Source: Candidatus Krumholzibacteriia bacterium
GTDB taxonomy: Bacteria; Krumholzibacteriota; Krumholzibacteriia; LZORAL124-64-63
Assembly: GCA_024762975.1 (NCBI GenBank)
Contig: JANTGJ010000015.1
Location: 1 to 44,200 of the forward strand
Length of the DNA stretch: 44,200 nucleotides
Reading direction: 5' to 3'
The notes under the pieces are model-generated. The model had not been told where the DNA came from. It saw only the letters and a list, made by a program, of their open reading frames with translations, and did no database searches. The stretch's first letter is position 1. The number at the start of each line of letters is the position of its first letter. Shown in pieces: positions 8,478 through 44,200 of the stretch. Both the position numbers and the translations under genes were made by a program.

Positions 8478-9779
8478 ATGCACGAGAGTTGGCTGAAGCA
8501 GAACGCGAACGGCGAGACCACGGACGTGGATATCTGGGCGGTGTCCTTCACCGCCCATCCTCTTTTGGACCCGGAGTTCCCGCAACATCGTTCCCGGTTG
8601 CTGGAGTTGGGTCGCATGACCTATTTCCGGATCCGGCGCGACAACGAAGCCTACCGACAAACACTGCTGCGCTACTTCTTTTCCCCGCATCTGAACCCGG
8701 CCGAACCGATCGGCCTGTCACAACTGAAAGCGCTGGCCCGGGAGTATCTGCTGGAAGCGGATATCTATCTCGCCTCGGCCATCGACCTGCTGCCGACCGA
8801 GAGCCGGCAGGCCGTCACTCCACTGGCCGAGGTCTGCGCCTGCGACGATGTGCGGGACCTGATCGGAATGGCCTTCCACGGTCGCAGCGGACGCCTACGC
8901 TACGAGGCCCGGCGCAAGCTGTTCCTCGGCCAGACGCTGTTGCACATCGACCAGTCGCGCGAGATCCAGGACGGCCCGAAGCACCTGGCCAGTTTCGAGG
9001 AGATCCTGGCCTCGGGCCTCTGGCAATACACCCGTCAGGTACACGACCTGCGCATCGGATTTCACGTGCAGGAGAACGGTTGCGACATCAACTACACCTC
9101 GCGACCGACCGAGGCCGATCGACGCCTCGATTTCCGGAGCACGTTTCTCGAGAAGAAGCACGGGCACCGGACCATCTCCCTGGATGTGCTGTACTACAAT
9201 TGCCGTTTCAAGCGATCGGTCACGAATATCGGTATGGAAGCCGTCGACGGGGTCGAGAGAGTCCTGGAGCGTCCCCGCTGGGGTCAGATGCGCACCGCCA
9301 GCAGTGGTTCGATCCTGTCCAAGATGATCCGCAAGGGAATCAACCATCCCGACGAGATCGGCGATCTGATCGGCGCCATGTTCATCGTGAACGACAACGA
9401 ATCCCTGAACGACCTGCTATTGATGCTGGACTCGTGCCTGGCCACGCCCTTTGGCTGGCGCAATGTGACGGACACTTTGGCCGGCAACCCGAACGGCTCT
9501 GCACTGAACCACTACAGCAGCAAGGAATTCAAGGTCTTCAAGGGGGATGTGGACGTACTGCACAGCGACAACGACGATCGAACCGCACCGTACCGATTCC
9601 CGGTCGAGATCCAGATCTTTACGCTGGAAGGTTATCTACGGACGGTTTGCAGCTCCCATGAGGCAAGCCATCGCGCCCTGAAGCTGCGTCAATTCCTGTT
9701 CGGGCTGGTGCCGCGGATCTTCCCGCGGGGTATCTACGGATCGGATTGGCTGGTACCCGAAAAAGTGACCGGCAACTAG
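8478..9779 (+). CDS. uncharacterised protein with a divergent RelA/SpoT-like nucleotidyltransferase region
   Basis: This 433-residue protein has no signal peptide or membrane segment. The first 270 residues are unfamiliar. The C-terminal part resembles the (p)ppGpp-synthetase fold in motif order: SGSILSKMIRKG (277-288), DEIGDLIGAMFIVND (292-306, like the DLxGxRI strand), NPNGSALNHYSSKEFKVF (337-354, in the place of the GYxSxH loop), VEIQIFTLEGYLRTV (376-390, like EVQIRT) and HEASHRALK (394-402, like HWxYK). E378 would match the catalytic glutamate. The match is by eye and remote, so the function is not established. ATG 8478 has GGAG just upstream. It lies 54 bp after the gamma-lyase on the same strand and is convergent with the next gene by 11 bp. 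Confidence 0.6.
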   Translation: MHESWLKQNANGETTDVDIWAVSFTAHPLLDPEFPQHRSRLLELGRMTYFRIRRDNEAYRQTLLRYFFSPHLNPAEPIGLSQLKALAREYLLEADIYLASAIDLLPTESRQAVTPLAEVCACDDVRDLIGMAFHGRSGRLRYEARRKLFLGQTLLHIDQSREIQDGPKHLASFEEILASGLWQYTRQVHDLRIGFHVQENGCDINYTSRPTEADRRLDFRSTFLEKKHGHRTISLDVLYYNCRFKRSVTNIGMEAVDGVERVLERPRWGQMRTASSGSILSKMIRKGINHPDEIGDLIGAMFIVNDNESLNDLLLMLDSCLATPFGWRNVTDTLAGNPNGSALNHYSSKEFKVFKGDVDVLHSDNDDRTAPYRFPVEIQIFTLEGYLRTVCSSHEASHRALKLRQFLFGLVPRIFPRGIYGSDWLVPEKVTGN

Positions 9780-21744: not shown

Positions 21745-22947
21745 TTAGGCGCCTTCGTCACCGGGGGCCTGGAGGTGGTACAGCGCTTCGAGCTGATCCA
21801 CCAGCTTCTCGAAGCTGAAATCGGCGGCCACGCGTTCCCGCGCCGCGCGCGAAGCCTCCGTGCGTGCCGCGTCGTCCAGCAGCCAGCCCTCGATGGAGTC
21901 GGCCAGTGCCTCCGGATCTCCCTTCGCGGCCAGCTTGCCGGTCCGTCCCTCCTGCAGCACCTCACTGACGCCCGGGATGGCATACGCCGCTGCGGGCAGT
22001 CCCGCGGCCATCGCTTCGAGCAGCACCAGGGGCAGACCCTCCCACAGTGAGGACATGCAGAACACATCGGCCGCCTGCATCACCTCGTCCAGGTGGATCA
22101 GGTTTCCGGGCAGCACGATGTGCGAGTCCAGGCCTTCGGCCTCGATGCGGGCCAACAGACCGGGACGCGACTCCCCGTCCCCGGCGATGACCAGACGGAA
22201 AGACCGCCCTCGTTCCTTCAGCAACGCCGCCGCGTCGACCAGATCGCCGAAGTTTTTCTGATCCCCGAAACGACCCGCCGCCAACACGAACGGCACGCCC
22301 TCGTCGACGCCGAACTCGGACCGCAACCCGGTACGTCGCCCGGCAGTGATCGGTTCGGGCAACGCCACGCCGTTGGTCACGACACTGATTCGTTCGGCTT
22401 CCGCCGGCCCCGCCCGCAGCGTGCGGATCAAGCTGGTGCGCACCTCGTCGCTGACGGCCACGGTGCCGGCGCAACGACGCAGGATCATCTGGTAGGCACG
22501 CTTGCGCAGGTGCGCCAGCACGCGGGTATCGACCTCTCCGTACCGGAATTCCTCGTTGTTGTGGATGGTGGCCAGCACCGGACAGATCCCGCGCAATGAC
22601 AACAACAGTCCCCAGAAATTGGCTCCGGGCAGATGAGTTTGCACGACACCCAGGTTCAGGCGCCGAACGTGCTCGGTAATCAGGCCCTGGCCCTGTCCCA
22701 GCGACAGCAGAAAATAGAAGGGATTGCGGATCGAGGCGCGCCAGAATTCGAGGTAGTGCACGTGCACGCGATCGTCGATCTTCGCGCTCAGCGGTCCCGG
22801 CTCGGTCAGTACGATGAGATGCGACTCGTGCCCACGCGCCGCCAACGCATTGGCGATGCGTACGGCCAAGTTCTCGGCACCGCCCATGGTCATCGTCTCG
22901 ACGATCTGGGCCACCGGTTGCAGGGTCACGGCAGTCTCTTCGGTCAT
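21745..22947 (-). CDS. GT4-family glycosyltransferase
   Basis: This 400-residue GT-B enzyme has VAQIVETMTMGGAENLAVRIA at the N-terminus (the GGAE loop), VVQTHLPGANFWG, FVLAAGRFGDQKNFGDLV opening the donor domain and SSLWEGLPLVLLEAMAAGLP with the EX7E-type acidic pair. The rest matches the standard group 1 fold. Cytoplasmic. Its ATG overlaps the stop of the upstream MqnE-like gene (ATGA), so the two are translationally coupled. Donor unknown. Confidence 0.9.
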   Translation of the reverse strand: MTEETAVTLQPVAQIVETMTMGGAENLAVRIANALAARGHESHLIVLTEPGPLSAKIDDRVHVHYLEFWRASIRNPFYFLLSLGQGQGLITEHVRRLNLGVVQTHLPGANFWGLLLSLRGICPVLATIHNNEEFRYGEVDTRVLAHLRKRAYQMILRRCAGTVAVSDEVRTSLIRTLRAGPAEAERISVVTNGVALPEPITAGRRTGLRSEFGVDEGVPFVLAAGRFGDQKNFGDLVDAAALLKERGRSFRLVIAGDGESRPGLLARIEAEGLDSHIVLPGNLIHLDEVMQAADVFCMSSLWEGLPLVLLEAMAAGLPAAAYAIPGVSEVLQEGRTGKLAAKGDPEALADSIEGWLLDDAARTEASRAARERVAADFSFEKLVDQLEALYHLQAPGDEGA

Positions 22948-23942
22948 GCCTCGTCCACGGGATGATAGGAGTCGTCGCGTTGCCGCGGTCGATATCCGGA
23001 CTGCGTGATGATCCGCTCCAGATCGGCGGCGGTCAAGGCGGGACTGCCCGCAGGGCGAAAGACAGACTCCACCTCCGTTCTTTCGAAGCCCACGTCATCG
23101 GCGCCGCACGAAATGGCCCGCCGAACCGTTTCCTCGTCCAGACCGGCCGCATCCAACTGGACGATCACCCCGCGATCCAGGGCCAGGCGGGCCCAGGCGA
23201 CGGTGCGCAACAGATCCTCGCGCGCGCTTGCCCGCCGCGATTCGAGCTGGTTCCAGGTTTCAGGGGCAGCGAAAAACGGCGCCGACCCGCGATCGACTGC
23301 TTGGATGACCAACACCGCCAGACCGCCCCTGCGATGATGGAAATCACTGATACGCAGGAGGTGCTCGACACGGTCCATCGCCGTTTCGACATGTCCGACC
23401 ATCCAGCCCGCCGAAACCGGGATCCCGGCCAGTCGAGCTTCCTGCAGGACCGCGAGCCACTCGGCCGCGTTGACCGATTCGGGCCAAAGCGATGCGCGGA
23501 CCCGGTCGGACAGCACTCCGGCATCGCCGCCGGGCAGAAAGCGGTGGCCCCTCGCAACCCACGCAGCCACCTCGACGGCCAGGGAACGACCCTTCGATCG
23601 AGCGGCGTTCGCGATCTCCGTTACGGTCGGCCCCGATGCGATCGTCCCATCGGACCACCCGACGGTTGCGCTTTCCGAACGCCGCAGGGTGGCTGCTTTC
23701 GTCAAGTCGCCCAGCGCCGCTTCCTCGAACAGGCACAGCAACTCCCCGCCGGTCAGGGGGCGGTCAGCCGCTTCGCCCAGCAGCTCCAGCGCAAAAGGCG
23801 TCGACTCCTCGATTGCGAGCAGCGGTTCGATCTCGGGGACCGGCGGTTCCTGCGCCGCGGATCCGCTGCGCCGGGCGAGGATCTCGTGATATCGATCCGG
23901 ATCCATCGGGCCGGGATCCGGTGCACCAGGAAATGGTTTCAT
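22944..23942 (-). CDS. degenerate MqnE/CofH-like protein lacking radical-SAM cysteines
   Basis: This protein of about 332 residues shows the C-terminal half of the aminofutalosine-synthase/CofH family: FLPGGDAGVLSDRVRA (135-150), VNAAEWLAVLQEARLAGIPV, GWMVGHVETAMDRVEHLLR (about 179-197), and a tail resembling the family ending (SGYRPRQRDDSY). The N-terminal part, LTGGELLCLFEEAALGDL, also fits the family. The segment that should carry the CX3CX2C cluster and about 60 following residues is absent; only two scattered cysteines remain. Radical SAM chemistry is therefore not possible by the usual mechanism. It may be a binding or scaffold protein, or an enzyme with new chemistry. The start is uncertain: ATG 23942 chosen, GTG 23975 possible. 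Coupled to the following GT. Confidence 0.68.
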   Translation of the reverse strand: MKPFPGAPDPGPMDPDRYHEILARRSGSAAQEPPVPEIEPLLAIEESTPFALELLGEAADRPLTGGELLCLFEEAALGDLTKAATLRRSESATVGWSDGTIASGPTVTEIANAARSKGRSLAVEVAAWVARGHRFLPGGDAGVLSDRVRASLWPESVNAAEWLAVLQEARLAGIPVSAGWMVGHVETAMDRVEHLLRISDFHHRRGGLAVLVIQAVDRGSAPFFAAPETWNQLESRRASAREDLLRTVAWARLALDRGVIVQLDAAGLDEETVRRAISCGADDVGFERTEVESVFRPAGSPALTAADLERIITQSGYRPRQRDDSYHPVDEA

Positions 23943-24050: not shown

Positions 24051-25364
24051 CTATTTCAAAAGGGTGACTCGCGTCTCGGACTCTCCATGAGTGGTGTGCA
24101 ATAGGGCCCGATATACGCCCGAAGCGACGACATCACCGCCATCGGTACACCCATCCCAGCCGTAGCTGTGTTCGCCGCAGCTGCCGAAGCCGTTGTACAC
24201 GCAGCAGACGCGCCGCCCGGCCAGGTCGAAGATGGAGACGTCGATCTCATCGTCCTGATCGATCCGGACCCGCAGGTCGGTGTGGGCATTGAACGGATTC
24301 GGTGCCGCAGCCACCGCGCAACTCAAGGCGGGTAGACTCTCGACTCCGGTCGGCATCGGTTTCCAGACCAGATCGCCTCCCAGGTCGACACACTCGGTTC
24401 GCCCGCGGTAGTAGGCCACCGCATCGCCGAACGTCATCACCGTACCCCCATTGGCCCGGACCAGATCGACCATCCAGGCCAGGTCCTGGCAGGACATCCC
24501 TGCCGAGTGGTAGTTGATGTCGCCGTACGCATCGTCGTCATCACCGAAGTGGTGAGAGTAGATCACGAACATGCCCCCGTCGGCCACCGCCTGGTCGATG
24601 TAGGGTTGTGTCGCGGTGACGAACTCCTCATAGGTGAAATGGACCGGCGGGTCGGCGCTGTGGTCGCCGAAAAATACCGTCGTGTAGTGTGCCACGGGAA
24701 CGCGGAACAGGCTGATGCCCCCCTCCCAGGAATTTCGTGCCGGGACGGTGAAATCGCCATAGCTGAACGTGCTGTAACTGCTGTTCTCCCCGTAGCGGGC
24801 CCCGATGTATCCTTCCTCGATCAGGGCGGCGATCACCGCTTTTGAATGACGGTGATTGGGGTAGGCCAGGGTGCGGACCTGACAGGGTTCGATCTCCACC
24901 AGCGCGGCCACGCTGTCCCGTTCGATCTCCGCCTGGAAATAGACCTCCGCTTCGCCCGGCTCGAATCCATCGCACATGAAGTAGGCCAGCAGGGACCCGC
25001 GCGGAGGGATCGGACAATCCGTGGGCACACCGGTGTGTCCATGGCCGTAGCCGTGATTGGCGATCTCGAAGCCTTCGGCGGCCAGCCCCTGCAACTCCAC
25101 TGGGGTCAATTTCTTGGGATGGTCACGCACCGACGAATTGATGGAAATCGTGAAACGCATGTCCTTCTGGCGAGCCACCTCGGCCCAGTCCAGATTGCAT
25201 TTCGTCCCGTCATCGGTCATCAGCACAAAGACGAAGGGATGGCCGTTCCATCGCCAGGTCTTGGCCGATTCCCCGGCGGCGGACGCGGAACCGGCGGAAA
25301 TGAGAGGCAGCACGATCAGGCAAAGAAGACACGACAGGAGACGGCACACGCGAAGATACGGCAT
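24051..25364 (-). CDS. secreted polysaccharide deacetylase-like protein with C-terminal FlgD/T9SS-like domain
   Basis: This 437-residue protein has an N-terminal signal peptide (about 1-30, LLSCLLCLIVLPLISAGSASAA). The deacetylase-like core has MTDDG (D51-D52), NHGYGHGH (H104, H108) and LAYPNHRHS, the metal and catalytic motifs of a NodB-type fold. The last 85 residues start with AAPNPFNAHTDLRVRI and continue VSIFDLAGRRV, WDG and GVYRALL. This is the FlgD-like/type A sorting-like domain common on secreted proteins of the FCB group. Many cysteines in the C-terminal domain may form disulfides. It is probably surface-exposed or released. ATG 25364 follows GAAAGGT, with a strong promoter upstream. 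Confidence 0.83.
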   Translation of the reverse strand: MPYLRVCRLLSCLLCLIVLPLISAGSASAAGESAKTWRWNGHPFVFVLMTDDGTKCNLDWAEVARQKDMRFTISINSSVRDHPKKLTPVELQGLAAEGFEIANHGYGHGHTGVPTDCPIPPRGSLLAYFMCDGFEPGEAEVYFQAEIERDSVAALVEIEPCQVRTLAYPNHRHSKAVIAALIEEGYIGARYGENSSYSTFSYGDFTVPARNSWEGGISLFRVPVAHYTTVFFGDHSADPPVHFTYEEFVTATQPYIDQAVADGGMFVIYSHHFGDDDDAYGDINYHSAGMSCQDLAWMVDLVRANGGTVMTFGDAVAYYRGRTECVDLGGDLVWKPMPTGVESLPALSCAVAAAPNPFNAHTDLRVRIDQDDEIDVSIFDLAGRRVCCVYNGFGSCGEHSYGWDGCTDGGDVVASGVYRALLHTTHGESETRVTLLK

Positions 25365-34663: not shown

Positions 34664-36370
34664 TCAGCGCTGGGAAATCCTCGAGTAGGTGATCTCGCCA
34701 CTCGCCTTGAGTTTCCCGACGGCATCCTCGGCAGCCTGGCGACTGGCGAACGGTCCGAGATAGACCCGGTGCCAGGAACGACCGGTCGAGTAGGGCGACA
34801 GTTTCACATAGGCGTTCCAACCGTCCTCGATCAACCGATTGCGGAAATTGGTCGCGCGGGCAGTTTCCTGGAACGAGGCCACATGCACGATGAACGAATC
34901 GACCACGGCGGGCGCCGGCGCCGGAGGCGTCGATACCACTTCCCGGGGCACGGGCTGCCCGGTCGCCGCGTTATCCGCGACTTCCTCGGCTTCCTCGGCT
35001 TCCTCGGCTTCCTGTGCCTGACCCGGATCCTGCCGACTCGACGCCACCTCGGTCTGCGCTGCGGCAACCGTCGCATCGGCAGGCTGCCCACCCTGTTCCC
35101 GGACCTGACTGGGCTCGGGCACCGGCGCCGGATGGTCGGTTGCCGGTTTGGCCGGATGCTCCGTAGCCGGTTCCGTCGAAGTCCCCGCCGGACCCGTTTG
35201 ATCCGGCATTGCGTCCTTCTGCGGTGAATCCGCAACCGTCGACTCGGACGAATAGCCACGCAACAGCGGCGCCCAGTTCGGACGCGTGAGCCAACCTGCG
35301 GCGATCAGCAGCAGGACGAGAATGACCATCCAAAGAGCTCGGCGTCCGCTCCGCTTCTCTCTCGCCGCAGTGGCATAGACCGGCGCGTCCGGATCCGACC
35401 GCGGTGCGGTCTCCGGAACGGCCTCGGGCGGCGCCGCAGGCACCGGCGCCGATGCCGGTTTCGGAGCCGGTTTCGGGGCCGGTTTCGGTTTCGGAGCCGG
35501 AGCCGGGGCCGGGGCCGGGTTCGAGGCCGGGGCCGCCTTCGCCGCGGCCGGGAGCGTCATCCCCAGCAGGCCTTCGACTTCATCCCGGGACTCTTCGACC
35601 AGTTTGCTCGAAATCATCTGCGCCTGGGCAACGTAACCCGAAAGCATCGCCTTGCTGCACAGGTAGTTGACGACCCGCGGCACACCACGGCTCAATTCGA
35701 AGAGACGATCGAGTGCAGCCTTTTTGAAGAGAGGCTTCGTCCGCCCGGCCTTGGACAGCCGGTGCTCGATATACTCGTCCATCTCCTGGCGAGACAGTGT
35801 TCCGAAAGTGTATGAGACCTTGATCCGCTGTCTCAGCTGCCGCAATTGCGGCGTGTCGAGCTTCGCCTGAAGTCCGAGTTGCCCCGTCAGTACGATCTGT
35901 AGAACCTGTCCGCCCGGCTGGGCGAGATTCAACAGCAATCGCACGCTTTCCAGGGATTCCAGCGTGAGGTTCTGCGCCTCATCGATCACCAGGAGTACCG
36001 AGCGATTGTTCGTGCGCAGGCGAATCAGTTCCTGCTCGAGTTGGTGCAGCAGGTTGGCGATCGGCTTCCCTTCGGCCGGGTCCTTGCCCAGCTTCAGCAG
36101 GATCATCCGCACGAGTTCGGCAAAACCGACGGTCGTGACGTTGATCGATACCGGCAGGACGCTGCCCGAGACCTGCTCCAACAGGCGATGGATGGCGAGC
36201 GTTTTCCCCGTTCCGATATCTCCCGCGATGAAGATCACGTCCTCTTGCTGCTCGAGTCCGTACACGAGATGCGCAACGGCTTCCTCGTGGACGCTCGAGG
36301 GGTAGAGGAAACCCAGATCGGGGTTCAGAGAGAACGGATCCCTCCGCAGGCCATAGTATTCCTGGAACAT
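34664..36370 (-). CDS. ExeA/GspA-like AAA ATPase with transmembrane helix and C-terminal SPOR domain
   Basis: This 568-residue protein begins MFQEYYGLRRDPFSLNPD, the opening of the ExeA and XrtA-locus ATPase group. Walker A is GDIGTGKT (50-57) and Walker B is LLVIDEAQ (D130, E131). The AAA part ends near 270. A Pro/Ala/Lys linker (about 275-325), one transmembrane helix (345-361), an acidic repeat-rich stretch and a SPOR domain (about 488-568, VHVASFQETARATNFRNRL) follow. ATPase in the cytoplasm and SPOR in the periplasm would couple energy to peptidoglycan, perhaps positioning the export machine. ATG 36370 follows AGAGGT and a strong promoter. Confidence 0.9.
   Translation of the reverse strand: MFQEYYGLRRDPFSLNPDLGFLYPSSVHEEAVAHLVYGLEQQEDVIFIAGDIGTGKTLAIHRLLEQVSGSVLPVSINVTTVGFAELVRMILLKLGKDPAEGKPIANLLHQLEQELIRLRTNNRSVLLVIDEAQNLTLESLESVRLLLNLAQPGGQVLQIVLTGQLGLQAKLDTPQLRQLRQRIKVSYTFGTLSRQEMDEYIEHRLSKAGRTKPLFKKAALDRLFELSRGVPRVVNYLCSKAMLSGYVAQAQMISSKLVEESRDEVEGLLGMTLPAAAKAAPASNPAPAPAPAPKPKPAPKPAPKPASAPVPAAPPEAVPETAPRSDPDAPVYATAAREKRSGRRALWMVILVLLLIAAGWLTRPNWAPLLRGYSSESTVADSPQKDAMPDQTGPAGTSTEPATEHPAKPATDHPAPVPEPSQVREQGGQPADATVAAAQTEVASSRQDPGQAQEAEEAEEAEEVADNAATGQPVPREVVSTPPAPAPAVVDSFIVHVASFQETARATNFRNRLIEDGWNAYVKLSPYSTGRSWHRVYLGPFASRQAAEDAVGKLKASGEITYSRISQR
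34981..35014. repeat. 9-bp tandem repeat (CTTCCTCGG, about 3.7 copies)
   Basis: CTTCCTCGG repeats at 34981, 34990 and 34999, with a partial copy at 35008. It encodes an acidic Ala-Glu-Glu run in the periplasmic linker of the SPOR protein. In-frame repeats of this kind can change copy number without breaking the reading frame. Confidence 0.7.
35453..35536. repeat. imperfect GCCGGTTTCGG repeats
   Basis: Short degenerate repeats based on GCCGGTTTCGG and GGAGCCGG occupy this stretch. They encode the Pro-Ala-Pro-Lys linker between the ATPase and the membrane helix. Confidence 0.6.
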
Positions 36371-38887: not shown

Positions 38888-39751
38888 TCACTCCTCCCGG
38901 GCGTTCCGCTGCTGCAGCCTCTTGACCCGCGGCAGGTAGAACAGGCGGCGATAGGCATGATACTTCAGGAGATTCAAATTGCTCACCTGATCGCGTCCAT
39001 GCTCCTGATAGCGGGCCAGGTCTTCGGCCAGGCGAGGACCATACTCCCGCCGATATTTCGGAAAGAGGTCATGGACCACCCACTCGTACAGGGGGAACTC
39101 CTGATCATACATTTCCCGGATCTGGTCGCACTTCTTCGGATCGGCCAGCAGCGACCGGGCGATCGTGTTGTCCCGGGCCGTATTCTTCCGCCGATAGGCG
39201 ATGCGCAGATCCGGAGCGAAGAGCTTCTGAAACAGCACCAGCGACTCGTCGAAGTGTTCCATCAAGCCCACGAAGGCGCGCTTGGACTCGATCAGCCGGA
39301 TCGCCTCATTCACGTCGACATTCGGCGAGAGCATCTTGATCTGGTGATTGTGATGCGTTTCCCACCCGACCCACTGGTCCCACTCGAAATGCTTGAAACC
39401 GTAGAGGCTGGTGTAGTCGTCGCTTGTGACATGGAACTGGTAGTGCGAGGCGCCGCGCTTGAGCGGCTCCCGGAGAAAGAGCAGGTATTGGACCTCGGGC
39501 ACGACCTCTTCCACACCGGACCACAGCGCCACGTGGTGCCCCCCCAGGCTGCGCATGCCCGGCATGATACTTTTCAGCTGGCGAATCTCCTGCGGCCCGA
39601 ATTTCGGGATCGTGAATCGCGTCTTCTCGGGTGATTCGATGCCATGCGGCTTCATCAGGGAAGCATCACAATGCGCCGCGCCATAGGCGCTGCGCAGAAG
39701 CGATTCGATGGTACGACCACCGGTTTTCGCCACATGTACGAATGCGATCAA
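38888..39751 (-). CDS. sulfotransferase (Sulfotransfer_2-like)
   Basis: This 287-residue protein begins IAFVHVAKTGGRTIESLLR, the PAPS 5'-phosphosulfate loop of the heparan-sulfate 2-O-sulfotransferase-like group (K9, TGG). LGGHHVALW and LLFLREPLKRGASHYQFH give the 3'-phosphate Arg and Ser. It is a cytoplasmic or membrane-peripheral enzyme likely to sulfate the polysaccharide or its lipid-linked precursor. The start is a TTG at 39751 with AGAGGG at good spacing, overlapping the polymerase stop (TTGA). It differs in type from the sulfotransferase at 25507-26250. Confidence 0.85.
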   Translation of the reverse strand: MIAFVHVAKTGGRTIESLLRSAYGAAHCDASLMKPHGIESPEKTRFTIPKFGPQEIRQLKSIMPGMRSLGGHHVALWSGVEEVVPEVQYLLFLREPLKRGASHYQFHVTSDDYTSLYGFKHFEWDQWVGWETHHNHQIKMLSPNVDVNEAIRLIESKRAFVGLMEHFDESLVLFQKLFAPDLRIAYRRKNTARDNTIARSLLADPKKCDQIREMYDQEFPLYEWVVHDLFPKYRREYGPRLAEDLARYQEHGRDQVSNLNLLKYHAYRRLFYLPRVKRLQQRNAREE

Positions 39752-41250
39752 ATCGAACCCTCTTCCGAAAGATACCGTGCATCGCGTTCAGCGGGCCGAT
39801 CCGACGGGAAGCCCACAACCACACCCGCGAAGAAGTACGGTAGGATGTTGATCAAACCAAAGAAGCGATAGTTGATCGCCAGGCCACCCACCAGATAGGA
39901 AATGGTCAGGGCGCCGAACAGCGCCAGCAGGTCCCGGTTGAACCACTCCCCCTGTGGATTTTCCTTCCATCGTTTGATGTAGATTCGTGCCACCACGGAC
40001 ATGAAGCCGAACCAAAGGAGCATCCCGATGAGTCCCTCCTCGGCCATGCGCCCCATATACATGTCGTGGATCGAACCGTGATCGCCCATCTTCTTTTTCA
40101 CGTAGCCGATGCCGGGTACATAGACACCCTGGCTGTACTTGTCGGCTTTCTGCTTGAACATGAAGTATCCGACACCGAAAATCGGTTTGTCCTGAATCGC
40201 CTTCATCGTAGCGTAGAGCACGCCGGCCCGGTTCTCGATCGTCCCCGTATTTCCGATCCGCTCGGCCAACAGCCCGTCCTGTTGCGCCCGCATGATTCCC
40301 AATGTACTGCCCAGCACCCCGAGCACGACCAGAACCAACACGATCTTCCGGTAGGACGGCCGCAAGACGGCCATCACGCCCAGCCCGACGATCGCCGCCA
40401 GCCAGCCACCCCGGGTGTACGTGAACAGCAGACCCACCGCTCCGATTCCCAGATTGGCCCAAAGGAGCAATTTGCGCGAAGCGCGGATGTGCCGCGTGAC
40501 CAGGAAAAAATGAACCAGCAGGTACATGCCCAGGATCTGACCGAAAACGGCCGGTTGCAGAAAGGGCCCCCGCGAACGACCGATCCACCGGTAATTCATG
40601 TCATAGATGATCGACTTGGGCCAGATCAGGAACATGATCCTGAACTGCTCCGCAATCGATACGACCCAAAAATAGACCGTGATCCCCACGAACGAGAAGA
40701 TCACCATCGCGATGTGCTTCTGTTCCTCGAAGAACTGCTTGGCGAAGAAGTAGGCCAGCATCGGCATCAGGCTCGAGACGGTCCAGAGATTGAAACGCGA
40801 CCCGTCGGCGATGAACATCGCGTTGAACAGGATGTAGAACGTATGCAGCAACAGGAGCATATCCGGCAGGATCGGCGCCTTGAAGGGGTTCTTGCCGAAC
40901 AGCCAACCCAGGAGCATGATCACCATCACCTGGATCTGCAACAGGCGAACGATGGAAACATCGGGCAGGCCGGGCATCCGGATCATGCCGACGGTATGAA
41001 AACCGGAAAGAAAGACCAGCCAGAGTACGAACACCAGCACGGGTGAGCGCAAGGCGAGCGCACCGGCCAATACGACGGCGAGCATGCCGCCTGCCAGGGC
41101 CACCAGGCCGATCGGTCCCAGGAAAAGCTGGGCCAGATACGAAAGGAAAGCAAAGCACGCGGCGAGCAGTACCGTGCCGATGAACTCGCCGAGGCCGTGC
41201 CGATGACCGAGTAGGCTCAGCCCTTCGGAGTCTGGCACAAGGAGTTTCAT
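39748..41250 (-). CDS. O-antigen ligase/polymerase-like membrane protein (Wzy/WaaL family)
   Basis: This is a 500-residue polytopic protein with about 11-12 membrane segments and a large periplasmic loop. The LLFTYTRGGWLAAIVGLGVM stretch is the hallmark of the Wzy_C/O-antigen ligase domain, and the loop before it contains YRWIGRSRGPFLQPAVFGQI. GYFMFKQKADKYSQGV and a catalytic-loop HGSIHDMYMGRMAEEGLIG follow, again typical. It would polymerise or ligate lipid-linked repeat units on the periplasmic side. It overlaps the chain-length gene by 4 nt and the sulfotransferase by 4 nt. Confidence 0.9.
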   Translation of the reverse strand: MKLLVPDSEGLSLLGHRHGLGEFIGTVLLAACFAFLSYLAQLFLGPIGLVALAGGMLAVVLAGALALRSPVLVFVLWLVFLSGFHTVGMIRMPGLPDVSIVRLLQIQVMVIMLLGWLFGKNPFKAPILPDMLLLLHTFYILFNAMFIADGSRFNLWTVSSLMPMLAYFFAKQFFEEQKHIAMVIFSFVGITVYFWVVSIAEQFRIMFLIWPKSIIYDMNYRWIGRSRGPFLQPAVFGQILGMYLLVHFFLVTRHIRASRKLLLWANLGIGAVGLLFTYTRGGWLAAIVGLGVMAVLRPSYRKIVLVLVVLGVLGSTLGIMRAQQDGLLAERIGNTGTIENRAGVLYATMKAIQDKPIFGVGYFMFKQKADKYSQGVYVPGIGYVKKKMGDHGSIHDMYMGRMAEEGLIGMLLWFGFMSVVARIYIKRWKENPQGEWFNRDLLALFGALTISYLVGGLAINYRFFGLINILPYFFAGVVVGFPSDRPAERDARYLSEEGSI

Positions 41251-42665
41251 GACTTCCGGGCAGGACGGATTTCAGAAATCGAACCCAGTACCGGAATCTC
41301 GAGAACTTCTTCCGCTTGTCGACGGCTGTAGATCTTGTGGTCGTTGATATCCACGAAGATCGCAGCCACCAGGCCCAACACGATCGCCAGGATCGCAGCC
41401 AACATCAGGTAAATGGTCCGCTTTCCCTGACCGATTCCCATCACGACCTGCGGAACATTCAGCGGCACGATGTTACTGACCCGCAGATCACTCTCGGCCT
41501 CCATGCGGACTTCACCCCGCTTGACCTGCATGGCTTCGAGCAGCTTGCGTTGCGCCAGGATTTCCATATCCAGGGACGCGACCCGGCGTTCGATTTCGGG
41601 GTATTGCATGATCTCTTTGCGGTACGCCTCGAATGAAGCGTTGAGAGAGTTTTCGTGTTCTACCAACTCCTGCAACTCGACTTCCAGGTTCCGCACGAAC
41701 ATCGAACGGGCGTCGAGAAAGACCATCTCGGTCTTGTCCACGTATTCCATTTGTCGTACGACAAACAGTGAACTGTCGTTGTAGCTGAGCCGCAGCTTCT
41801 CCAGTTGCAGACGTGCGTCGTTGAAATCGGAGAACGCACCGAGCAGCATGGCATTGGCGCTCCCGGTCGCGCGCGGTATGAAATACTTGTCCGCGGCGAT
41901 CTCTCGACGAATTTCGGCCAGCCGCCGTTCCATGCCTTCGCGATTCGCCCGGGCCGACAGGAACTGATACTCCATTTGCCGCATATATTGAATCGAAGAC
42001 GTCTTGTTGATCTCGAAAGAATTGATACCGCCGTCCTCGAATACCTGGGCACGCTCGGACATCAGGTCATCGATCTCACCCTGGAGCTGGTCAACCTGCT
42101 CGGTGTAGTACTGCGTCGCACCGGTGTTGTTCTTGCTCTCGGCATTGAACTCGACGTACGCCTCGGTCACGGCATCGACGACCATCAGTGCAAATCGCGG
42201 CAGATGATCGGAAAAGTTGATGCTGAGAATATCGCTTTCCGCCACCTGGGAGCAATGGATCCCCTCGAGGATCGCCCCCTTGAAATCATCAGGACCGGTG
42301 ACACCCGCGAATCTCGGATCCAACTCCTGCAGGATCTGCAGCGAATCCATCAGGGCCGCCGCGGCCTTCTCGGCCACCGGGGTACTGGATGCGACCTGCC
42401 CCGCCGTACTCATCATCACGTCATGTTCGACACCCCGGTTGACCCGGAAGGTCGGCGAATCCGTGCTCAGGCCCTCGACCAGTACCTGGGAACTGGCCGT
42501 ATAGGTGTCCACGGTATTCATGGTTCCCAGCACGGAAAATACGATGATCGGCACCGAGACCGCGAGCACGATCCACCGACGCCGAAAGAAGATCACGAGA
42601 ATGTCGCGCAGCGTCAGCTTACGATCCTGCGTCACCTTGGCGGGATAGGGTGTTATCTCGTTCAC
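41247..42665 (-). CDS. Wzz/GumC-type polysaccharide chain-length determinant
   Basis: This 472-residue protein has one N-terminal membrane helix (WIVLAVSVPIIVFSVLG), the Wzz motif region YTASSQVLVEG, a long periplasmic coiled-coil middle (about 190-370), and a second helix (TIYLMLAAILAIVLGLVAAIF) preceded by the Pro-containing NIVPLNVPQ. The short cytoplasmic tail carries no kinase domain; the kinase-like protein is a separate gene upstream. It controls polymer length with Wzy and contacts the exporter. I prefer GTG 42665 because GAAGGTGA lies upstream; GTG 42674 is possible. Confidence 0.9.
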   Translation of the reverse strand: MNEITPYPAKVTQDRKLTLRDILVIFFRRRWIVLAVSVPIIVFSVLGTMNTVDTYTASSQVLVEGLSTDSPTFRVNRGVEHDVMMSTAGQVASSTPVAEKAAAALMDSLQILQELDPRFAGVTGPDDFKGAILEGIHCSQVAESDILSINFSDHLPRFALMVVDAVTEAYVEFNAESKNNTGATQYYTEQVDQLQGEIDDLMSERAQVFEDGGINSFEINKTSSIQYMRQMEYQFLSARANREGMERRLAEIRREIAADKYFIPRATGSANAMLLGAFSDFNDARLQLEKLRLSYNDSSLFVVRQMEYVDKTEMVFLDARSMFVRNLEVELQELVEHENSLNASFEAYRKEIMQYPEIERRVASLDMEILAQRKLLEAMQVKRGEVRMEAESDLRVSNIVPLNVPQVVMGIGQGKRTIYLMLAAILAIVLGLVAAIFVDINDHKIYSRRQAEEVLEIPVLGSISEIRPARKS

Positions 42666-42700
42666 GACAGTCACCTTCGTTTTACGACCCGGGCCGCCGG

Positions 42701-43507
42701 CTAGCGGACCAACCGATCGATCTTGTCGATGTTCACCAGGCCATAGATGTCCCAGAAGAAATCAGCCATCTCGCCCGCGGAACCGAATATGGATTTGGTC
42801 AGATAGCCCAGATCACCCAGCTTGGATTGCGGAACGTAGACGATGTCATAGGCCCGCAGGTCGAAGTAGGTGAGATCCATGATGCCTTCATCCTCGATGT
42901 GGCTCAGATCATGGGTTCGAATGACAAATCCGTCTTCTCCTGCCCGCAGTATGGCGACATTGGACTTCTCGGCGGCTCTCGTGAATCCGCCGGCGGCCGC
43001 GATCGCCTGCATGACGCCCGTGCCAGCCGCAGGCAGCTTGTACAGCCCCGGGTGCTCCACATTGCCCATCACATAGACTTCGGGAGTGCTGACTTCGACA
43101 ATCACCAGACTCAGGTCGGGATTGCGATACTCGCGCCCATAGAGCTCGTTCAAGTGACTGTCGAGCTCGGGAATGGTCCGTCCGGCGGCCCGCACACTGC
43201 CGATCCCCGGCAAACTGATGTAGCCGTCGGGCAACACGAGAATCCGTTCCCGGTTCAAATCCGGTTCGTACTGGAAAGCGATCTGCAGGACGTCCCCGGC
43301 GCGGATGCGGTAGCGCGCTTCCTTGGCTTGGTCTCGCGCGGCGATCTGCTCCGGTGTATAGGGCACCATACGGGTCCGTACCGGCTGCCGACTCGAGCCG
43401 CAACCGGACGCCGCAGCCAGGAGCAACAGTACTACGATGCATGCCAACGGAATTCTCCGGGCACGGCTCGTACGCCGGCTTCCCGGTTCACCAATCGTGG
43501 TTTTCAT
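42701..43507 (-). CDS. Wza-type outer-membrane polysaccharide export lipoprotein
   Basis: This 268-residue lipoprotein has signal peptide LACIVVLLLLAAASGC with lipobox C36. The poly-export domain starts at YRIRAGDVLQIAFQYEPDLNRE, and LPDGYISLPGIGSVRAAGRT is its conserved core. VYVMGNVEHPGLYKLP begins a SLBB domain. It forms the outer-membrane exit pore or its periplasmic collar; the size is nearer GumB/KpsD-minimal than full-length Wza. ATG 43507 has AGGA at five bases and stands 6 nt after the BY-kinase-like gene. Confidence 0.93.
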   Translation of the reverse strand: MKTTIGEPGSRRTSRARRIPLACIVVLLLLAAASGCGSSRQPVRTRMVPYTPEQIAARDQAKEARYRIRAGDVLQIAFQYEPDLNRERILVLPDGYISLPGIGSVRAAGRTIPELDSHLNELYGREYRNPDLSLVIVEVSTPEVYVMGNVEHPGLYKLPAAGTGVMQAIAAAGGFTRAAEKSNVAILRAGEDGFVIRTHDLSHIEDEGIMDLTYFDLRAYDIVYVPQSKLGDLGYLTKSIFGSAGEMADFFWDIYGLVNIDKIDRLVR

Positions 43508-43513
43508 GAAATC

Positions 43514-44200
43514 CTACAGCCTCCGGTACAGAAAATCGGGCAAATGATAACTGCGCCGATTCAACGTGGTCCCCAGAACCTTCACGTCCAGGGACTGCAT
43601 GCGCTCCAGCCCGTGCTTGACGACTTCGTACTTCAAACGCTTGCTCTCGACGACAACGACCAGGCCCAGCGTGGGCCGGGCCAGATGCGCCACTTCGACG
43701 CTGTCGAGAATAGGGGGCGCGTCGATGATTGTGAAGTAGAAGGATCGCTTGAGATTCTCGATCAGGCGCAGGTACTCGGGGCCCTTCAGATAGTCCAGGG
43801 CATTCATCTTCCGAGTGCCGTTGCCGGCCACGACCAGCTCGGCCGTGTTGTCGAAATCGGGCAGGGAGTCCGGGTTCGCCAGCAGTTCGCGGAAATTGAT
43901 GGAACTGTCGACGATTTTCTGCTGAGGCTTTCGGAAGTTGCCATCGATCCAGGCCACCTTGCGACCGACCATCATGGCGAGGTACCGGGCACAGTTGTAC
44001 GAGACGTAACTGTTCCCTTCACCGCCGGTCGTGGACGCAAAAGTAACCACCGAGCCGGTGGTTTCCGAATTGTGATTGATCAGGGAATTCGCCAGTTGCT
44101 CAAACTCGCCGACACGGTCGGCGGTCAGAGGCGGGAACAGGTTCCCCTGGTCGAATGTGCGCAATCGCTCATTCAAATCCAGCGGTCCCTGCGAAGACCT
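43514..44200 (-). CDS. BY-kinase-like P-loop protein (CpsD/ExoP type), 5' end cut by window edge
   Basis: The frame stays open to the right edge, so the N-terminus may be outside; a TTG at 44176 is the only in-window start. The fold is that of the bacterial tyrosine kinase/ParA group: VVTFASTTGGEGNSYVSYN is the Walker A region and FTIIDAPPILDSVE is Walker B. The Walker A lysine is replaced by Asn (GGEGNS in place of GEGKS) and Walker A' reads WIDGNFRKP instead of DxDxRxP. The C-terminus has only two tyrosines, not a cluster. It may be a regulatory pseudokinase for the chain-length protein encoded downstream. Degenerate versions of this motif exist in other polysaccharide loci. Confidence 0.85.
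   Translation of the reverse strand, partial: RSSQGPLDLNERLRTFDQGNLFPPLTADRVGEFEQLANSLINHNSETTGSVVTFASTTGGEGNSYVSYNCARYLAMMVGRKVAWIDGNFRKPQQKIVDSSINFRELLANPDSLPDFDNTAELVVAGNGTRKMNALDYLKGPEYLRLIENLKRSFYFTIIDAPPILDSVEVAHLARPTLGLVVVVESKRLKYEVVKHGLERMQSLDVKVLGTTLNRRSYHLPDFLYRRL

Follow-up and report, generated by a model that had tools for sequence, protein, structure and literature searches.

The window, by which we mean the whole stretch of 44,200 nucleotides that was analysed, carries an exopolysaccharide (EPS) locus in which a glycosyltransferase (GT) gene is preceded by a reading frame related to mqnC. MqnC is the cyclic dehypoxanthinyl futalosine synthase, an iron-sulfur enzyme of menaquinone (vitamin K2) synthesis. 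The features of the locus, together with those found within the MqnC-related protein, are collected in Table 1. The window genome (3.8 Mb, 96% complete, 265 contigs) was compared within a set of 38 genomes of one bacterial family, recorded as Candidatus Krumholzibacteriota, in which three genera are of particular concern: g1 (the window genome and G001), g11 (G011 and G020) and g13 (G013, G022, G029 and G035). The frame of interest opens with an ATG codon backed by homologues (MKPFPGAPDPGPMDP in the window against DLRPFPDAGDNSPMDP in the intact MqnC of G036) and contains no internal stop. Its end overlaps the start of the next GT by ATGA (GAGGCATGACC), exactly as the first-pass annotation had read it, and this GT belongs to the GT4 family (Glycos_transf_1).

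Table 1. Features of the EPS locus in the window and of the MqnC-derived protein, with the MenD genes of the three genera
Feature	Position	Strand	Basis or remark
GT4-family glycosyltransferase	21745..22947	(-)	Glycos_transf_1 1.6e-37; start overlaps stop of MqnC derivative by ATGA
Cluster-less MqnC-derived protein, 331 aa	22944..23942	(-)	TIGR03699 match, no CX3CX2C, AlphaFold2 (AF2), Foldseek
C-terminal half, residues 201-332, strongly diverged	22947..23342	(-)	absent in g11, mostly absent in g13
alpha4-beta5-alpha5 segment, residues 143-200 (LSDRVR, GHVET, DRVEHLLR)	23343..23516	(-)	conserved positions
Deletion junction, residues 89-105	23628..23678	(-)	beta1-alpha1-beta2-alpha2-beta3 and cluster loop missing; alignments, AF2 strand 93-97
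N-terminal helical part, residues 46-88, best-kept region	23679..23807	(-)	19/24 conserved MqnC positions retained
N-terminal extension motif PMDPDRYHEIL, residues 12-22	23877..23909	(-)	typical of MqnC in the bacterial family of the window
Secreted polysaccharide-deacetylase-like protein with FlgD_ig tail, directly upstream	24051..25364	(-)	Polysacc_deac_1 2e-4, FlgD_ig 1.9e-5, both slightly under cut-off
XrtA/PEP-CTERM-associated ATPase with SPOR domain, locus marker	34664..36370	(-)	TIGR03015 2.2e-70 (below cut-off), SPOR 1.2e-12
Exopolysaccharide polymerase (Wzy_C), chain-length determinant (Wzz), export protein (Poly_export/SLBB), tyrosine autokinase-like protein	39748..44200	(-)	
MenD, three deeply different types	G000:C4:23940-25217; G011:C167:3720-4868; G013:C1:1834199-1835521		

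The gene had initially been described as an MqnE/CofH homologue devoid of the cysteine motif. The kinship and the missing motif both stand, since the protein is a relative of this family and contains two cysteines, neither of them in a CX3CX2C context, but its nearest family is MqnC. The best family model is TIGR03699 (E 1.2e-30, 106.6 bits), which aligns residues 104-327 with model positions 125-340; by this score, set against a cut-off of 428.1 bits, the protein falls outside the MqnC family proper. The CofH (3.9e-27) and MqnE (2.8e-24) models rank behind it and are far below their own cut-offs, and the sole Pfam match, CofH_C (the C-terminal region of CofH and MqnC), is slightly under its cut-off. 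Identity to any homologue is only 32-40%, yet the similarity is far above chance. Common descent is further indicated by the shared locus, with the order mqnA, intact mqnC, GT in G036 and the same order minus mqnA in the window. From these sequence comparisons we conclude that the window gene is derived from mqnC and not from mqnE or cofH. A PyrR phosphoribosyltransferase-like match past the deletion junction (window 23532-23669, residues 92-137; E 0.005 with NCBIfam, 0.1 with PDB) was set aside as probably due to chance.

Alignment with the local full-length MqnC proteins (about 400-417 aa) confirms that a segment is missing from the window protein, although it comprises roughly 80 residues, from VTYIIDRN... 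to ...WIHGF, and not the 60 or so first estimated. This segment covers beta1 to beta3 of the barrel, including the cluster loop, with strand labels according to the established radical SAM barrel. The protein lacks the [4Fe-4S] ligands and the SAM-binding half of the barrel and thus does not qualify as an active radical SAM enzyme. The parts that remain have been preserved very unequally. Within the alpha4-beta5-alpha5 segment, 20/41 conserved MqnC positions are retained in the window, as compared with 36-37/41 in g11 and 15-17 in g13, and residues E186, R191, E193, H194 and R197 are invariant among the cluster-less forms. The C-terminal half is the most eroded, with 2/17 conserved positions kept in the beta6 region and 21/49 in the C-terminal region proper, and the MqnC motifs TFQP, WVTQG and GANDLGSxMMEE have been replaced. 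At the other end, an extension with the motif PMxPxx[YF]x(E/Q)L is carried by most intact MqnC proteins of the family and is kept in the cluster-less forms of g1 and g13; the PMxPxxYxEL motif was not found in the non-MqnC-type ORFs of the loci examined.

The AlphaFold2 model of the window protein, computed from 16 sequences, reaches a pLDDT of 76.5 and a pTM of 0.76 and consists of N-terminal helices (49-57, 65-74 and 77-88, pLDDT about 83-93), the later barrel strands and, at the junction, a newly formed predicted strand (93-97) in which the two sides of the deletion are rejoined. The corresponding protein of g11 is modelled with higher confidence (pLDDT 87.9, pTM 0.83). Solved MqnE structures (PDB 6xig/6xi9) are the best fold match for both models, with E values of 1e-13 and 2e-11: Foldseek places the window model closest to 6xig_A (E 1.1e-13, TM 0.67 by query length), and the g11 model is nearest to MqnE as well (TM about 0.8 by query length). 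Both AlphaFold alignments included intact homologues, which biases the models toward an MqnE-like fold. Structure prediction, from which a refutation could have come, instead points to MqnE, and a contracted, cluster-free version of the MqnE-type fold is plausible on the basis of these models.

Such a fold could suggest that a nucleoside or sugar nucleotide can still bind in the contracted barrel, which would act as a sensor or as a co-substrate carrier for the GT, a role close to the nucleoside or sugar-like ligand proposed in the first-pass annotation. The predicted MqnE-type fold and some conserved positions that remain (GHVET, R191, E193, H194, R197) would be compatible with such binding. 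The idea is nevertheless weak because the C-terminal motifs are precisely the part that was lost: they are replaced in the window, the region that held them has disappeared from g11 and for the most part from g13, and much of the barrel is gone. We regard ligand binding as improbable.

With the window protein as a query, in addition to intact MqnC proteins from other genera, further cluster-less ORFs were found in both species of g11 (204 aa) and in G013, G022 and G035 of g13 (about 220-240 aa, as compared with 331 aa in g1); the G035 gene is split over two contigs with a 28-base overlap and gives 237 aa when joined. The cluster part is absent from every one of these forms. The C-terminal part is missing as well from those of g11; in those of g13 it is mostly gone, together with the fourth strand. 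Shared by all three genera are the N-terminal pair of helices (GGELL..EEA.L.DL..A) and the segment around DRV, GH/N-x-ET and ERVEHLLR. A chimeric or mis-joined contig that dropped the cluster-coding segment, or a comparable binning error, might be feared in an assembly of 265 contigs. The recurrence of cluster-less forms in separate assemblies of three genera, the in-frame deletion junction and the absence of the remaining futalosine pathway make such an artefact very hard to believe.

The fate of that pathway was followed across the family. MqnA/MqnD (PF02621) are missing from every g1, g11 and g13 genome among the 38, the window genome included, and neither a full MqnC nor a full MqnE was found in these genera. 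The intact mqnE whose search elsewhere in the window genome had been advised could not be found by a genome-wide search, and no intact mqnC was found either; the partner enzymes MqnA, MqnD and MqnE are all lacking there. The only other matches to the MqnC and MqnE models in this genome are short radical SAM core matches in two ORFs of 475 and 391 aa (G000:C101:9945-12760, L047). Outside g1, g11 and g13, MqnA/MqnD are absent from a single genome, G008 (89% complete), which has a full MqnE. Five genomes (G012, G021, G026, G027 and G016) have MqnE and MqnD and lack both mqnA-mqnC and the GT; the exopolysaccharide island is probably missing from these bins, and their futalosine pathway would otherwise be incomplete. 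The classical pathway was judged by MenD alone, which passes its cut-off in seven of the 38 genomes, each of them a member of g1, g11 or g13, and in none of the others. The futalosine and classical pathways are almost mutually exclusive, a single organism among 1,294 proteomes having both (PMC3914697). Because MqnA/MqnD are absent and MenD is present, g1, g11 and g13 appear to have swapped the futalosine pathway for the classical one, and these same three genera are those with a cluster-less MqnC.

In the rpoB tree the three genera are not grouped together: g11 falls with g3/g6/g14, g13 with g4 (97.9% support) and g1 among g7-g10/g12. Genus g4 has mqnA and a cluster-bearing mqnC, truncated by its contig. 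The MqnC tree places g11 within g3/g6 (70-91% support) and leaves g1 and g13 on long branches without resolved placement. With the genera set apart by rpoB and their MenD proteins sharing only 24-38% identity, the pathway was probably switched three times independently. This count is provisional, as it depends on a single-gene tree in which the taxon G002 has a suspiciously long branch.

In all three genera, the cluster-less gene lies in an XrtA-type exopolysaccharide locus, at the place taken by intact mqnA-mqnC in other genomes of the family, where these two genes commonly adjoin EPS genes, and the earlier view of a cluster-less fold recruited to a polysaccharide locus is borne out for an MqnC/MqnE-type fold. 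The constant context is the locus as a whole (ATPase, Wzz, Wzy, export protein, tyrosine kinase, flippase and sulfotransferases) and not the GT alone. G011 has the XrtA-type ATPase first, then the GT and then the cluster-less gene, once more with overlap by ATGA, so that the coupling to the GT is seen in both gene orders, in g1 and g11. A sulfotransferase-like gene separates the two in G022 and G035. The cluster-less gene of G013 stands immediately after the XrtA-type ATPase, and that genome has no close homologue of the GT. Homologues without the cysteines, for which a check had been suggested, are thus conserved, and adjacent to a GT in g11, but the tie to the GT is loose in g13. A strict partnership is weakened by the G013 protein, which has no close GT homologue, and by G001, which has the GT without the protein. 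The orthologous GT also adjoins intact mqnA-mqnC in G036, G003, G005, G006, G014, G023 and G030, and by this synteny the GT tie of the window gene is in part inherited. In several genera, a conserved gene of about 430 aa (..AHPLL..; window 8478-9779 on the (+) strand, L040:6918-8192, L036:4849-6183) is oriented convergently to mqnC or its derivative; it has no match in NCBIfam, its window copy has none in Pfam, and in G011 it shows only a weak RelA_SpoT match.

A gene on its way out after the pathway switch, of which the window copy would be a pseudogene still open by chance, must be considered at this point. In the sister species G001, all that remains of mqnC is a relic of about the last 32 codons (L059:10719-10840; LRHDHPLTASNLEGIITGVGLPPILREYGNNFQG, then a stop), located just upstream of the orthologous GT and overlapping its start, with an alignment score of 43, where 300 shuffles reached at most 35; because only this end is kept, the gene can be dispensable within g1. 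Decay would also agree with the differing amounts retained between genera and with the weaker constraint on the window copy, about 2.5 times less than on intact MqnC: over the same columns, omega on the window branch is 0.14 as compared with 0.056, and omega=1 is rejected (2dlnL 39.9), on a branch that spans time before and after the deletion and has saturated dS. The g11 and g13 comparisons fall entirely after cluster loss and clearly speak against decay. The cluster-less pair G011 and G020 has a dN/dS of 0.16 at a dS of 0.50 (neighbouring genes 0.055-0.09); codon models purpose-written for this analysis give an omega of 0.23 for the two g11 tips and reject omega=1 for them (2dlnL 39.0) and for three g13 sequences (2dlnL 156.6). 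Purifying selection after the loss of catalysis is hence found in two of the three genera, in a data set where dS is saturated on most branches, g1 contributes one cluster-less sequence and the assemblies are of MAG quality. For the window copy itself, a stop-only simulation with 1.0-2.2 neutral changes per codon leaves the frame open in just 2.4% to 0.2% of runs, frameshifts uncounted, and none was seen; the coherent fold predicted for the protein likewise argues against a relic. Decay strikes us as rather unlikely.

We therefore lean, with a little more belief than doubt, toward the window gene encoding a retained and functional, non-catalytic protein of the EPS locus, a pseudoenzyme derived from MqnC. 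In g1, g11 and g13, the part of the barrel that houses the [4Fe-4S] cluster and SAM is gone from MqnC, while the helical part and the contracted barrel have remained at the EPS locus, presumably with a non-catalytic contact or regulatory role in EPS synthesis. Most probably the remnant would act as an adaptor or regulatory partner that is translated together with its target, either the neighbouring GT4 (in g1 and g11) or another EPS component, for example the XrtA-type ATPase, with binding through the N-terminal extension and helices and the GHVET-ERVEHLLR face; this adaptor mechanism is put forward tentatively. A protein-binding role of the extension is what its sequence conservation points to, because the extension is kept in g1 and g13 even though the enzyme is gone. 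Its persistence without catalysis means that the intact MqnC may already have had two jobs. The MqnC of this family could then be both a menaquinone enzyme and a structural or regulatory part of EPS synthesis, each pathway replacement discarding the catalytic half and setting free the second job, at least three times. We offer this extension of the argument as a speculative possibility.

If true, nature would have performed a repeated separation-of-function experiment, in which what remains after pathway replacement reveals the second function of a radical SAM enzyme. This suggests a route to moonlighting enzymes, namely to look for the survivors of non-orthologous pathway replacement. It would also link menaquinone genes to exopolysaccharide loci, where mqnA-mqnC are placed in this family.

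A literature search found no cluster-less MqnC derivative and no precedent in Krumholzibacteriota, and the comparison is best made with four known systems. Like MqnC (TIGR03699), the window protein is encoded at the same locus, beside the same GT4 as in related genera, and bears the N-terminal extension common to the intact MqnC of the family; it differs in the absence of CX3CX2C and of beta1-beta3, in its replaced C-terminal motifs and in the loss of the rest of the pathway. MqnE, the aminofutalosine synthase (6xig/6xi9), is the best match in fold, whereas the window sequence is nearer to MqnC and lacks the cluster and at least two beta-alpha units. In the biosynthetic radical SAM enzyme QueE of E. 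coli, a separable second function has been traced to a lineage-specific region (PMC11142719); QueE keeps its catalysis, whereas here the catalytic part is wholly lost and the second function is the inferred one. With pseudoenzymes in general (reviewed in PMC10211241), the window protein shares the loss of a catalytic motif and the keeping of a fold under selection, but it has parted with a large portion of the barrel and not with single residues.
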